The notes under the pieces: model-generated
Told to the model about the DNA's origin: nothing
The model's database searches: none
What the model saw: only the letters and a program-made list of their open reading frames with translations
In this document: positions 22,637 to 27,848 of the stretch, in pieces
Layout of the letters: each line of letters opens with the position of its first letter
Position numbering within the stretch: the stretch's first letter is position 1
DNA from: a bacterium
GTDB lineage: Bacteria; Patescibacteriota; Saccharimonadia; Saccharimonadales; UBA4665
Direction of reading: 5' to 3'
Assembly (NCBI GenBank): GCA_021841155.1
Contig: JAKBVU010000006.1
Span: 1 to 34,724 of the forward strand
DNA: 34,724 nucleotides
Translations under genes and position numbers: made by a program

Positions 22637-23935
22637 ATGATTAAAAAAATTTCCTTAACTAGCTTAGTGTTAATGGTCCTCTTTTTGTTGGTAATGCCAT
22701 TAAAAACTTATGCTACTTCAGTTGGTACGATCTATATTTCTCCGTCTAGTCTCAGTCAAGAAAATGGTACAACTTTCACGGTAGCCCTAATGATTAATCC
22801 GGGTACTGCAGTTAATGCTGTTCAGGCCAACGTAAACTATAATCCCAGTTATCTACAGTATGTATCTAACTCAACTAGTGGTTCGGCCTTTCCAACCTGC
22901 GTCCAAGACTCTCCCGAAAGTACAGCGGTAGTTTTTGCTTGTACTATCTTATCCGGCTCAGTCAGTAGTAATGCTGAAATCGCAACCATTACCTTTAAAG
23001 CCATCAGCAACGGAACGACAACCTTAACACTCAGTAATGCTAACGCGGCCAATAATGGGACCTGGACCAACCCAGCTTCATTAAACAGTTCAGTTGGTAT
23101 TTATACTCCAGCTCCGAAACCACAACCCAAAGCTCCTACCAGTAGTTCAAGTTCAAGCTCAAATCAAAATTACTATACTAATCAATCAACCTCAACTCCT
23201 ACATCAACAACAACTTCAAAACCAGTTCAAACCCAATCGACAAAACCTAATATCAGTATTAAATCGATTAATCAACAAGTTCAATCGAATCAAGTCCAAT
23301 TAGCTATTACAACTAACACAGCAGCTACTATTTTAGTTAAATACGGTGTTAATGCTAACAATCTTAATCAACAAATATCAAATTCTAAAAATAGCACCAA
23401 TAATCAGCTCAGCTTGACTAATTTAATCCCAAATACAACTTATTATTATAAGGTTTTTACTAGCCTTAATGGTCAAATTATTACTACAAGCCCTCTCAAA
23501 AGCTTTAAAACAATTGGCTTAACAATTACAGTGGTAATTTTAACAAAAAATTTTAAACCTATTCAAGGTCAAACTTTTTATCTTAATAACCTAAAAAACA
23601 AAACTACTTCTAATCAGAACGGACAAGTAACTTTTTACAATCAAAGTCCAGGCAATAATCAATTAATTTATTTTATTAATCATAAAGAAATCAAACAAAG
23701 CTTTTATGTACCAACATTCTATCAAAATCATCAACTAATTAATCAAAAAACTATTATTACACTTAATCAATATAACCTAGCCGCTTTAAACCAATCTGAT
23801 TTAGCTGGTTTAATAACAATTACATTATTTATTATTGGAATCGCTGCTAGAATAATTATTGGTCACAAACACCATCTTATGAAATCAACTAAGACTTTAT
23901 CTTTAAACAAATCGAACCAACCTCAATCTGACTAG
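22637..23935 (+). CDS. Cell-surface protein with cohesin-like domain, Fn3-like domain and C-terminal membrane anchor
   Basis: A 432-residue exported protein. Signal peptide at 1-26 (KKISLTSLVLMVLFLLVM, cut near TYA). Residues 29-157 look like a cohesin: YISPSSLSQENGTTFTVAL, the NAVQANVNYNPSYLQYV strand pair, then EIATITFKAISNGTTTLTL. A Ser/Thr/Pro linker (158-203) leads to an Fn3-like domain (205-291, NLIPNTTYYYKVFT) and a second beta-sandwich (295-377, resembling carboxypeptidase-regulatory-like domains). A transmembrane helix at 390-408 and a basic tail anchor it. In cellulosomes cohesins bind dockerins with high affinity; the convergent neighbour encodes a dockerin protease, so this is probably its surface receptor. 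Two cysteines (C88, C102) could form a disulfide in the cohesin. Confidence 0.8.
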   Translation: MIKKISLTSLVLMVLFLLVMPLKTYATSVGTIYISPSSLSQENGTTFTVALMINPGTAVNAVQANVNYNPSYLQYVSNSTSGSAFPTCVQDSPESTAVVFACTILSGSVSSNAEIATITFKAISNGTTTLTLSNANAANNGTWTNPASLNSSVGIYTPAPKPQPKAPTSSSSSSSNQNYYTNQSTSTPTSTTTSKPVQTQSTKPNISIKSINQQVQSNQVQLAITTNTAATILVKYGVNANNLNQQISNSKNSTNNQLSLTNLIPNTTYYYKVFTSLNGQIITTSPLKSFKTIGLTITVVILTKNFKPIQGQTFYLNNLKNKTTSNQNGQVTFYNQSPGNNQLIYFINHKEIKQSFYVPTFYQNHQLINQKTIITLNQYNLAALNQSDLAGLITITLFIIGIAARIIIGHKHHLMKSTKTLSLNKSNQPQSD

Positions 23936-24137
23936 CGGCATTATTGTTCCAAGAAGGACAATAATAACCAAGCTTTAAAGCTTTTTGACGCCAACGATTT
24001 GGCACAATTAAATTACCAGCATAGAGAGGTTTTGATTTAGATTGATGATTCTTAACGTAAACATAATAACTAAAACTCAAAATAATAATTAGAACAACTA
24101 GACCTATTAAATAAACTAAACTTCTATTTTTTTTCAT
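23889..24137 (-). CDS. Small membrane-anchored protein coupled to the S53 protease gene
   Basis: An 82-residue protein with one N-terminal transmembrane helix (about 8-27, VYLIGLVVLIIILSFSYYVYV) and a 55-residue tail with two cysteines (YYCPSWNN, GSICLK). Its ATG overlaps the TAA of the protease gene (TAATG), which suggests translational coupling. Its last 47 bp overlap the end of the convergent cohesin gene, where both strands are coding. No family is recognised. The position suggests a helper for export, maturation or anchoring of the protease, but this is inference. It could also be a chance frame, though the start overlap and the clear helix argue for a real gene. Confidence 0.5.
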   Translation of the reverse strand: MKKNRSLVYLIGLVVLIIILSFSYYVYVKNHQSKSKPLYAGNLIVPNRWRQKALKLGYYCPSWNNNAASQIEVGSICLKIKS

Positions 24138-25879
24138 TAATTATCTCCATATTCTTGAGCTAAAATACTTAAATCTAATAGATTGACCACTCCATCACGA
24201 TTAATATCAGCTCGACCCAAATTAGAGCCACTCTGACCGTATTTAGCCGACAACAAACTTAAATCGAGCAAACCAACATGTCCATTTTGATTAATATCGG
24301 CTGGATAAGTTGCTCTAGCCGTCACCGTCATTGAAGGACTAGATAATTCACCTTGACTATTATAGGCTACCACGAAATAGTTATAATAGGCATTAAGAGT
24401 TAATCCAGTGGCTGCATAACTTTCTGTCGTCACATTGGCTATTTTGACACCATTTTGATAAACGTAATAACCACTAATACCGGTCGTACTCTCCATTGAC
24501 CAGGATAAATCAATTAAATTTTGATTAATGTCGGTGGCGTTTAAATTAATAGGATTAAGAGGTAATGTTTGAAATGCACCAAGTCCATTAGGTGAACCTA
24601 AACCACTAGGCGTATTAAAACCAGTAGTAGCCGTACAGTGTAACTGACCGGTTGAAGTACAATCATTACCGGTTGTAATATTGTGAAAATTAGCTGCTGA
24701 ATTGTTAAGATAAAGAGTCTCAACTGGTGGTGAGGTAGCACTAGCTATACCTGAAGATAATCCATAAATACCAGCTATAATTGGAGTTGCTAACGAAGTG
24801 CCACCAATCAAATACCAGGTACCATCAATATTAACTGCTTCACCAGTATTCGGATTAGCGTCAGCCGAGACATCGCCAAAAGATCGATATGCACCACAAC
24901 CATTCGTTGACCAATCACTTAAACTTTTTTGCCAAGTTGGTGCCGAATAATAGTTCGAACAGCCTCCACCGCTATCAATCCAAACACTTTCACTATTATA
25001 AGTATTATTAGAATTCAAGTTAAGTGTTGTGCCTGCCACGGCCACCACTTGAGGAATATCTGCCGGCCAGGCTGCTCCGACTGATACTGTTCCACTATCT
25101 CCGGTAGCTGCTAAATCAGCTATATTATTATATTGAAAATTAGCATCATAACTAGAATAATCACTACCAGCTCCCCAGCTATTAGAAATCGCAACCGGAT
25201 TAAAACTAGAAGCGGTTAAATTAGCCGCTGCTAAATCAGCTACGCTTGCTGTATTGGCCTCAACTAGTAAAATCTTACAGGTTTGACAAATCATATGAGC
25301 TGTCTCTAAATCAAGCGCTATCTCATCCGACCATCCAGCATCAGCTGGTAGATTGGCAGGATTATTAGAACCTGTTTGATTGACAACTTCTAAACAACCG
25401 TCAGTGGTATTACACTGTGCAATACCAAAATATTGATCGTAATTATTTAATGAAGTATTTAATCCGCTAATCCCTGAAGAAAAATTACCAGCATCAACAA
25501 TAGCAATCGTCTGCGGACCAAAGTTTTGAGGAGTTTGACAAACTGTTGCTACGTTACCACCAGGTGTGCATGGCAAATCATAAGCAGTATGAAATTGATC
25601 AGGTCCGTAACCACCACTAGTAGCTGGAAAACCATTAAGTGGATGACCGTCTATATTGAGAGCAATCTCAGCCAAACAATGCCCATAACCAGCTTTATAA
25701 TTATTACAAACCGGTTTATAGGGATGATTGACGACTGGTCGAAGGCTTAGACCAAATTGTTGTAAAAGTTTTTGATTATTAAAGCGATAATTGTTATTAA
25801 TGACCAATAAACTTCCAAATAATAAAAATAATATCATTAAACCAAATACTAAATGATGACGTCTTAAACTTTGGTACAT
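24137..25879 (-). CDS. Secreted sedolisin-family (S53) serine-carboxyl peptidase with Fn3 and dockerin domains
   Basis: A 580-residue exported protein with an N-terminal hydrophobic segment (9-28) acting as signal or anchor. The S53 catalytic domain (about 60-435) has Glu186 and Asp190 (DEIALDLE), Asp261 (AATGDSGTV) and nucleophile Ser362 (GGTSLATP). The long propeptide usual in sedolisins is missing. An Fn3 domain (about 441-522) and a type I-like dockerin (526-578) follow. Its two calcium loops are DINQNGHVGLLD (528-539) and DINRDGVVNLLD (558-569), each followed by a KYG/EYG helix. It would digest proteins outside the cell, held by a cohesin partner. Two Asp positions of the usual S53 calcium site (DIT and WD) look replaced by Asn (HNITTG, GFN), so calcium binding may differ. 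Confidence 0.87.
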   Translation of the reverse strand: MYQSLRRHHLVFGLMILFLLFGSLLVINNNYRFNNQKLLQQFGLSLRPVVNHPYKPVCNNYKAGYGHCLAEIALNIDGHPLNGFPATSGGYGPDQFHTAYDLPCTPGGNVATVCQTPQNFGPQTIAIVDAGNFSSGISGLNTSLNNYDQYFGIAQCNTTDGCLEVVNQTGSNNPANLPADAGWSDEIALDLETAHMICQTCKILLVEANTASVADLAAANLTASSFNPVAISNSWGAGSDYSSYDANFQYNNIADLAATGDSGTVSVGAAWPADIPQVVAVAGTTLNLNSNNTYNSESVWIDSGGGCSNYYSAPTWQKSLSDWSTNGCGAYRSFGDVSADANPNTGEAVNIDGTWYLIGGTSLATPIIAGIYGLSSGIASATSPPVETLYLNNSAANFHNITTGNDCTSTGQLHCTATTGFNTPSGLGSPNGLGAFQTLPLNPINLNATDINQNLIDLSWSMESTTGISGYYVYQNGVKIANVTTESYAATGLTLNAYYNYFVVAYNSQGELSSPSMTVTARATYPADINQNGHVGLLDLSLLSAKYGQSGSNLGRADINRDGVVNLLDLSILAQEYGDN

Positions 25880-25980: not shown

Positions 25981-26799
25981 TTAAACTATTTTTAGTAAAT
26001 TTTTTAAAATAATTAATGACTGAATCAATCGACTAGCTTTAATTGGTTTTTGCTTTAAATCATTAACACTGTAACGTTTAATTTTTTTAAAAAGATAATA
26101 ATAATAATCATAGCTAACTAAAACAATCAATCGACAGTTGCGTGGTAACAATTCAATCGACCGTCTAACGGTTGCAAAATCTCGATCAATTTGGTTAGTA
26201 ATAGATTTTTTATAACTTTCATCAAATTGTTGATAATTATCAAGCGGCCAATAAAAATATCCTAGATTTTCATAATTCTTTTTTAAATTAATAATTAAAT
26301 TTATTCGTTGATAAATTGATCCCAACAACCTAGCATTTGTTTCTAATTTTCTAATCTTTATCTCATCAATCATAAAAACTCGTAAAATCATCAAGCTTAT
26401 TACTTCAGCTGAGCCATGAATATAAAGATCAAATTTTTTCTGATTTAATTTAGTCTTCCTTAAATCTAGTTTAGCTGCTTGAAATAAATCTAATATCTCA
26501 TTTAAATCAAATTGATTTTTTTTGGCTGTACGCACAAATGACATAACAATTAGATTAGTTGAATATTGGTTCAAAAAAGCCTGAACTGTTTCTTCTCTCA
26601 CTTCATTTAAATATTTGACTGGATATTCAAGAGATGGCTGGTTAATAATTTGTTTTATTAAAATTATTAATCCATAAAGATTATACAGATCATGTCTAGT
26701 ATCTTTTTTAATCAACCGACTTAAATAATAAAAAAACTTTTGATGTTGCTTCAAAAATCTCTTAGATATTAAGCTAGAAAAAACAATTAAATCATCCAC
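25981..26799 (-). CDS. Squalene/phytoene synthase-fold protein lacking both Asp-rich motifs
   Basis: A 272-residue all-helical protein. YIHGSAEVISLMILRVF (126-142) matches the YCxxVAGxVGLM helix of trans-isoprenyl head-to-head synthases. LGSIYQRINLIINLKKN (159-175) followed by LGYFYWPLD matches the LGxAxQxxNILRDxxED...GRxYxP segment. The first metal motif, normally DDxxD after LYxFCR, reads LYGLIILIKQIIN (41-53), and the second, normally DxxxD, reads NLKKN; both have lost their Asp residues. The start is GTG at 26799, overlapping the TAG of the polyprenyl synthase (TAGTG), so they are coupled. Loss of all metal ligands argues against ordinary catalysis; a partner or regulatory subunit of the upstream synthase is possible. 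The family call rests on motif alignment by eye. Confidence 0.6.
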   Translation of the reverse strand: MDDLIVFSSLISKRFLKQHQKFFYYLSRLIKKDTRHDLYNLYGLIILIKQIINQPSLEYPVKYLNEVREETVQAFLNQYSTNLIVMSFVRTAKKNQFDLNEILDLFQAAKLDLRKTKLNQKKFDLYIHGSAEVISLMILRVFMIDEIKIRKLETNARLLGSIYQRINLIINLKKNYENLGYFYWPLDNYQQFDESYKKSITNQIDRDFATVRRSIELLPRNCRLIVLVSYDYYYYLFKKIKRYSVNDLKQKPIKASRLIQSLIILKNLLKIV

Positions 26800-27848
26800 T
26801 AAAAACCAACTCTCAAATTATTAATATAACTACTAAATTGTTTAAGGTAAGAGTTACTAATTGGTAATTCTTGCAATAATTTCAACGAAGTCATTTTTAA
26901 ATTATCAATTAAATCTAAAATTTCCTGATAAGCCGTAGAACCGATAATTAAACTTTGTAATTTTTTTTGATCAGTCTTACTAATATTATGTTGACCCATT
27001 AAATTATTAATTAATCTTCTACTTTCCTCGTTAACATCATTATAAACTCGAGATATAATATAGGTTTTCTTGTTATCACGAATATCACTTAAAATAGGTT
27101 TACCTATGACTATTTCTGTTGAAAATAAATTATTTAAATCATCAATTAATTGATAAATTTGTCCTAAATTAAAACTAAACCTCTTCAATAAAGATTCGTT
27201 GAGTTTTGTTTTGGTTAAAATACCAGCCATCTTGATTGGAAAATAAAAACTATACATTGATGTTTTAAAATTAATTATCTTTAACGCTTGGTCCTGATCA
27301 TATTTATTAAAAAAAGTTTCCATATCCATTAATTCACCACCAGCAACCAAAAAGATATCGTCTTGCAAAATTTTTAATAATTTAATTTTTATTTGCGACT
27401 TTAAACAACTATTTAAAATTAAATCATAGCTAGCTGACAATAATAAATCACCACTCAAAAGCGCAGCAGAATTACCTAAATGATAAGCCATATTCGAAGA
27501 TTTTAATTTATATTGTTCAACTCTTACGGCTGCTAAATTAGGACGAGAATGTCGAATAAAATCTTGGTCAATCATATCGTCATGAATTAATAGAGCAGTG
27601 TGTAAAATCTCTTGAGATAATGCTATATCTAAAATATCTTGCATCTCTTGACCACCAAATGCTAAATAACTTAAAACTAATAAATATGCCCGACTTCTTT
27701 TACCGCCTCCTAAAATATAATCTCGAATATCTTGCCATAACAAAGCATAGCTACTATCAACTTTTTCAGCTAAACAAACTTGTAGCTTCAAATAATCATT
27801 TAAAGTCTGACTCAATTGACTTAAAATTTCTGCTTTAGATATAGACAT
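26799..27848 (-). CDS. Polyprenyl (trans-isoprenyl) diphosphate synthase
   Basis: A 349-residue enzyme that condenses isopentenyl diphosphate with allylic diphosphates. Substrate residues GGGKRSRA (47-54) and the first Asp-rich motif DDMID (90-94) in ALLIHDDMIDQD are clear. HLGNSAALLSGDLLL is a family hallmark. The second motif, DDLNN (236-240), has Asn for its last Asp, with GKPILSD and NKKTY following. Position -5 from the first motif is Ala85 rather than an aromatic residue, a pattern typical of longer-chain synthases such as ASLLHDD enzymes, so the product may exceed C15; this is inference. Its product could feed UppS or another isoprenoid. It heads a two-gene operon; a TATAAT box (27863-27868) lies 14 bp before the ATG. 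Confidence 0.9.
   Translation of the reverse strand: MSISKAEILSQLSQTLNDYLKLQVCLAEKVDSSYALLWQDIRDYILGGGKRSRAYLLVLSYLAFGGQEMQDILDIALSQEILHTALLIHDDMIDQDFIRHSRPNLAAVRVEQYKLKSSNMAYHLGNSAALLSGDLLLSASYDLILNSCLKSQIKIKLLKILQDDIFLVAGGELMDMETFFNKYDQDQALKIINFKTSMYSFYFPIKMAGILTKTKLNESLLKRFSFNLGQIYQLIDDLNNLFSTEIVIGKPILSDIRDNKKTYIISRVYNDVNEESRRLINNLMGQHNISKTDQKKLQSLIIGSTAYQEILDLIDNLKMTSLKLLQELPISNSYLKQFSSYINNLRVGF

Follow-up and report, generated by a model that had tools for sequence, protein, structure and literature searches.

A putative one-cohesin, one-dockerin cassette for surface display of a sedolisin protease in a Saccharibacteria genome

We analysed a contig of 34,724 nucleotides (JAKBVU010000006.1 of assembly GCA_021841155.1, positions 1 to 34,724 of the forward strand; this whole stretch is the window) and found that it carries two neighbouring genes, one for a membrane-anchored protein with a cohesin domain and one for a sedolisin-family protease ending in a dockerin. 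We consider it likely that they form a surface-display cassette of one cohesin and one dockerin, a variant of cohesin-dockerin docking outside the cellulosome. The original prediction, made from the letters of the window, had proposed a display pair of one receptor and one protease. Comparative analysis supports this proposal well through the uniqueness of both domains in the genome, their adjacency, the convergent orientation of the genes, the conservation of the two modules and the topology of the proteins, from which we infer binding. The source genome measures 599 kb in 35 contigs and is 94% complete. Its owner is a very small, probably parasitic bacterium of Candidatus Saccharibacteria, the group to which the relatives having named records (L125 and L127) belong. 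The features of the cassette, with the basis for each in brackets, are as follows.

22637..23935, + strand: cohesin-bearing membrane anchor, 432 amino acids (open reading frame, Pfam, AlphaFold model, Foldseek, hydropathy)
22721..23107, + strand: cohesin domain, residues 29-157 (Pfam PF00963 and a beta-sandwich model like solved cohesins)
23108..23251, + strand: linker rich in Ser, Thr, Pro and Asn, residues 158-205 (sequence; predicted local distance difference test score, pLDDT, <50 over 164-202)
23252..23761, + strand: two putative beta-sandwich spacer domains (sub-cut-off Pfam match, homologue L114, model)
23795..23869, + strand: predicted C-terminal transmembrane helix, residues 387-411, followed by a basic tail (hydropathy 2.37; model helix 387-413)
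23889..24137, - strand: small putative membrane protein, 82 amino acids (overlaps the protease stop codon, TAATG)
24137..25879, - strand: sedolisin (S53) protease with Fn3 and C-terminal dockerin, 580 amino acids (open reading frame, Pfam, kumamolisin match)
25790..25861, - strand: N-terminal hydrophobic segment of the protease, residues 7-30, signal peptide or signal anchor (hydropathy 2.61)
24566..25618, - strand: sedolisin catalytic domain, residues 88-438 (alignment to kumamolisin and nine homologues)
24314..24562, - strand: Fn3 domain, residues 440-522 (Pfam just below cut-off; chitinase A1 Fn3, 1k85)
24140..24304, - strand: type I dockerin, residues 526-580 (Pfam PF00404; PDB 2y3n_B)
24263..24298, - strand: dockerin calcium loop 1, residues 528-539, DINQNGHVGLLD (sequence)
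24173..24208, - strand: dockerin calcium loop 2, residues 558-569, DINRDGVVNLLD (sequence)

The cohesin-like N-terminal domain that the original prediction had placed on an exported, membrane-anchored protein was recovered by profile and by fold, and a C-terminal helix was predicted for the protein. Pfam Cohesin (PF00963) matched residues 39-134 with 37.0 bits against a cut-off of 24.1 (E-value 4.9e-9). The AlphaFold model of the anchor reached a pLDDT of about 70-93 across residues 31-156, and Foldseek comparison of this part with solved cohesins gave template-modelling scores, normalised to the target, of 0.82 for 2vo8 from Clostridium perfringens, 0.79 for 6kge from C. acetobutylicum and 0.76 for 2xdh, a non-cellulosomal cohesin of Archaeoglobus fulgidus; 1aoh was similar as well, the four together spanning 0.74-0.82. 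Residues 29-157, named at the outset as the cohesin, therefore possess both the profile match and the fold. Searches of the anchor sequence against PDB chains, profile search included, returned no cohesin, whereas the fold search did. Prediction from sequence and model showed the remaining parts of the anchor to be an export segment (a hydrophobic N-terminal stretch ending near ...TYA), a membrane helix and further domains. The spacers are Fn3/purple-acid-phosphatase-N-like (residues 206-294) and prealbumin/CarboxypepD_reg-like (295-375), as judged from a sub-cut-off Pfam match, a sub-cut-off CarboxypepD_reg match in the homologue L114 and the model.

The gene that converges on the anchor gene, in the layout described originally, encodes the expected sedolisin-family protease with Fn3 and a two-loop dockerin, as confirmed by Pfam and by the match to kumamolisin. 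Pfam Dockerin_1 (PF00404) covered protease residues 527-575 with 35.6 bits against a cut-off of 22.9 (E-value 1.1e-8), and the closest dockerin in the PDB was 2y3n_B, that of a cellulosomal GH48 enzyme (6.6e-8). The calcium loops lie at D528-D539 and D558-D569, exactly as first proposed; D528, N530 and D539 in one and D558, N560, D562 and D569 in the other are invariant across nine homologues, indicating two duplicated loop-helix segments. The Fn3 part fell just under the Pfam fn3 cut-off (residues 443-517, 24.3 bits against 25, E-value 3.8e-5) and was matched by the chitinase A1 Fn3 (1k85) in a profile comparison (2.9e-11). NCBIfam gave no cohesin or dockerin model match, its single match (CbhB) being confined to the Fn3 part. 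An AlphaFold model of the full protease, built with nine sequences, was discarded at a mean pLDDT of 45.8.

The catalytic part resembles kumamolisin (1t1e, 8.9e-19). Residues E186, D190, D261 and S362, which we take from established knowledge of kumamolisin to be the S53 catalytic positions (a Glu-Asp-Ser triad plus the oxyanion Asp), align with it and are invariant in nine homologues. Kumamolisin is made with a propeptide of about 190 residues. In our protein the catalytic domain begins near residue 88, about 57 residues past the hydrophobic segment, and no propeptide profile matched up to E = 10. Sedolisins are acid proteases and work best in acid; the scarcity of charged residues seen here would fit an acid habitat.

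A third gene, absent from the original prediction, starts on the protease stop codon. Its 82-residue product carries a hydrophobic helix at the N-terminus, and its short conserved end reads VPxxWxxxAxxLGYYCPSW...C. This protein is found also in both other cassettes of the genus and at L123 and L064; across the order it scored above 110 bits only in sedolisin cassettes, and everything else stayed at or below 25 bits. Given that the usual propeptide is missing from the protease, a role as its chaperone or inhibitor is no more than a reasonable guess.

We then asked whether the two main genes belong together. A scan of the whole genome, proposed originally as a search for further dockerins, gave one PF00404 and one PF00963 match even at E ≤ 10. 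Among 247 genomes of the order, mostly draft assemblies, Pfam thresholds placed a cohesin in 50, a dockerin in 68, both in 42 and neither in 171. The pair lay within 5 kb in 38 of the 42 genomes having both domains, and in every genome with exactly one cohesin and one dockerin (21/21) the two were adjacent. On the latter count we rejected the idea that they are neighbours by chance, and on the convergent orientation that of a single protein split in two. A lineage-specific cohesin model placed cohesins beside several dockerins that Pfam had left unpaired. For 20 one-to-one pairs, cohesin distances followed dockerin distances with a Mantel r of 0.74 (0 of 5000 permutations). Elsewhere the two genes usually stand in tandem, mostly with that for the dockerin immediately ahead of that for the cohesin; in the sedolisin version they converge.

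The arrangement recurs in other genomes, which the original prediction had not mentioned. Sedolisin-dockerin genes numbered ten: the one in the window, two others from its genus, a further five from the order, and L123 and L124, which come from named records. All ten converge on a homologue of the anchor. Their neighbours, named by reading their sequences, include yvcK/NUDIX in the genus of the window, an apbE-like gene at L123, rpsB-tsf and prfA-prmC at L124, an ABC transporter at L125, parB and a signal peptidase at L126, and gyrA at L127 and L128. Since the neighbourhoods differ between cassettes, the sedolisin pair stays intact in changing surroundings. Six genomes of the genus were sampled; three carry the two genes, and the other three lack both. 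The order also contains four remote sedolisin matches that extend over the catalytic part only, with no dockerin. The mean pairwise identity among seven divergent sedolisins was 73% for the dockerin, 62% for the catalytic part, 41% for Fn3 and 17% for the N-terminus; in the anchors the cohesin reached 46%, the linker and beta domains 32-34% and the transmembrane helix with its tail 18%. Dockerin and cohesin are thus the best-conserved modules of their proteins.

Topology separates the two partners across the order. By hydropathy, a transmembrane segment after residue 90 is present in 51 of 57 cohesin proteins versus 0 of 51 dockerin-only proteins. This pattern fits a predicted division of labour in which the cohesin marks an anchored receptor and the dockerin tags exported cargo. 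Among proteins carrying both domains, which look like adaptors, 2 of 11 have such a segment.

The cargo beside cohesin anchors varies. It includes a subtilisin with a Pfam S8 domain (L070, its dockerin falling under the family cut-off), polysaccharide deacetylases (L068, L073, L077, L086), arrays of Ig-like or Fn3 domains, and, adjoining a two-cohesin anchor, an N-acetylmuramoyl-L-alanine amidase that bears a dockerin tag and four peptidoglycan-binding repeats (L084, 978-3800), a candidate for acting on the wall of another cell. At L088 and L089, overlapping or abutting genes encode a dockerin protein, a cohesin-plus-dockerin protein and a cohesin anchor in that order, the first two of which occur at L091; this arrangement suggests head-to-tail chains. 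In one genus (L092; G097) we found a scaffold-like protein that combines a dockerin with three cohesins and five Fn3 domains, and L097 and L098 (G146, G170) resemble it by domain tags and Fn3 matches. These proteins, near further cohesin anchors, are a possible small cellulosome-like system in Saccharibacteria. In another family, dockerins of L115, L116 and L117 sit on papain-like (C1) and subtilisin-plus-leucine-rich-repeat proteases of 1100-1500 amino acids; no recognisable cohesin was found near these three. In a sample of 380 genomes of the phylum beyond the order, a cohesin occurred in 112 and a dockerin in 149, and in at least 19 genomes of other classes, as lists compared by eye indicate, the two lay within 3 kb or in one frame. 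Patescibacteria outside Saccharibacteria, such as G312:C27 and G338:C36, bear rows of dockerin genes, and the G312 contig also bears multi-cohesin frames.

In the mechanism that we propose, the anchor would be exported, and its C-terminal helix would retain it in the cytoplasmic membrane, with its N-terminal cohesin held off the membrane by the flexible linker and the two beta domains. The sedolisin would leave the cell by way of the hydrophobic segment at its N-terminus; the dockerin at its C-terminus, folded round two calcium ions, would plug into the cohesin of the anchor. Docking would keep the protease outside the cell, presumably active at its surface. Our guess at the likeliest use is digestion of proteins where the cell touches a host or a neighbouring cell, either to attach or to obtain amino acids. 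The variety of cargo suggests that the sedolisin cassette exemplifies a general scheme of Saccharibacteria, in which the same receptor module takes different cargo. With less than even confidence we extend this to a plug-in surface system in Saccharibacteria, and probably other Patescibacteria, in which an anchored cohesin would hold an exchangeable dockerin tool encoded by a neighbouring gene (S53 or S8 protease, wall amidase, deacetylase, Ig or Fn3 arrays), sometimes through adaptor chains or small scaffolds, for contact with the host, and in which the 82-residue protein would replace the propeptide as chaperone or inhibitor.

Several observations weigh against a display pair. By Pfam threshold, 8 genomes of the order have a cohesin only and 26 a dockerin only, and the cohesin of the homologous anchors L113 and L114 lies under Pfam detection, although the lineage-specific model detects it. 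The co-occurrence of the two domains (Fisher p 1.5e-21) was counted over related genomes and is not corrected for phylogeny; likewise, the Mantel r falls to 0.50 once the sedolisin group is excluded, and it too comes from relatives that are not independent and carries no such correction. In addition, residues 7-30 of the protease show no obvious AxA site in this species, so that direct tethering by this segment might make the dockerin partly redundant. The protease could then be held by its own uncleaved helix, and contact of the dockerin with the cohesin would orient, cluster or regulate it instead of attaching it. We regard this as unlikely: plausible signal-peptidase sites were seen by eye in L125 (...HPALA|AQP), L126 (...VFA|LDL) and L127 (...VVA|SG), the N-terminus is the least conserved part of the protease, and none of the dockerin-only proteins of the order has a C-terminal anchor.

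The two modules might instead be structural relics: the cohesin would be a beta spacer of a generic kind, the dockerin a cap stabilised by calcium, and the genes would be neighbours through chance or shared regulation. Modules resembling cohesins and dockerins are known in isolation outside cellulosomes, according to the part of PMC10066038 that cites Peer et al. 2009, and the 26 genomes with a dockerin and no detected cohesin would agree with this. The invariable adjacency in one-plus-one genomes, the convergent order kept in different neighbourhoods and the superior conservation of both modules make it very improbable. A display pair could also be real and yet serve to scavenge nutrients or to process the bacterium's own surface proteins instead of attacking a host, which we would rate as a serious possibility, somewhat below even. 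Acid proteases would suit the breakdown of dead protein if the habitat is acid, and processing or nitrogen recycling has been proposed for cellulosomal proteases (PMC12484212); nothing specific speaks against such a use, but the amidase and deacetylase cargo elsewhere fits action on the wall of another cell at least equally well.

With the cellulosome of Clostridium thermocellum and others, the cassette shares cohesin and dockerin domains, dockerin-tagged proteases and surface-anchoring cohesins. There, the cell-bound scaffoldin ScaD is the preferred partner of an S8 protease with a dockerin tag, and a cysteine peptidase of Ruminococcus flavefaciens binds the surface-anchoring ScaE cohesin (PMC12484212). 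Our genome differs in having one dockerin, no multi-cohesin scaffoldin, an S53 protease, an anchor with a transmembrane helix and a convergent two-gene cassette. We rejected membership in a cellulosome on the strength of one cohesin and one dockerin in a genome of this completeness, with no scaffoldin; Pfam found no carbohydrate-binding module or glycoside hydrolase domain in either protein, and the sole dockerin is on a protease. By analogy, the pair would work like a one-site cellulosome anchor. A cellulosome-like complex predicted in Ca. Stygibacter (Cloacimonadota) includes a dockerin-tagged serine peptidase with an S8/S53 domain (PMC8542988), but it has a large tandem-cohesin scaffoldin, carbohydrate-binding modules and several enzymes where we find one cohesin and one enzyme. 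The pair of A. fulgidus, whose cohesin matches the anchor model as given above, is also non-cellulosomal, comes from an archaeon and serves engineered surface display (PMC12484212). The C. perfringens enzymes GH84C and GH33, represented among the top structural matches by the cohesin-Fn3 double module 2w1n and the cohesin 2vo8, bear the cohesin on enzymes, whereas here it is on a membrane anchor. Compared with other S53 sedolisins such as kumamolisin, the protease has the catalytic domain and tetrad in common, shows no recognisable long propeptide and carries Fn3 and the dockerin in addition.

Beside the cassette, at 25981-27848 on the - strand of the window, lie genes for squalene/phytoene synthase and polyprenyl synthetase; these suggest an isoprenoid pathway, which one would not expect in a genome of 0.6 Mb. 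Promoter and terminator scans gave a signal no better than shuffled sequences.

The original prediction knew of no described example in this lineage. This appears to hold for the pair, as we found no description of cohesin-dockerin pairs in Saccharibacteria in a literature search that most subscription journals lay outside, and it does not hold for dockerins as such, since the dockerin-domain protein SEML1_0315 is reported to be essential in a cultured Saccharibacterium (PMC10633639). The comparison suggests that holding tools at the surface by receptor and plug is a general, apparently undescribed method of Saccharibacteria. It would carry cohesin-dockerin docking past the breakdown of plant fibre, help to interpret a set of gene pairs that lack annotation in Patescibacteria and offer a candidate partner logic for dockerin proteins like SEML1_0315, and the naturally matched two-gene pairs may serve surface display in the laboratory. 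A receptor and plug with swappable cargo would, if true, be a compact and testable answer to how very small epibionts build their surface and handle their hosts.

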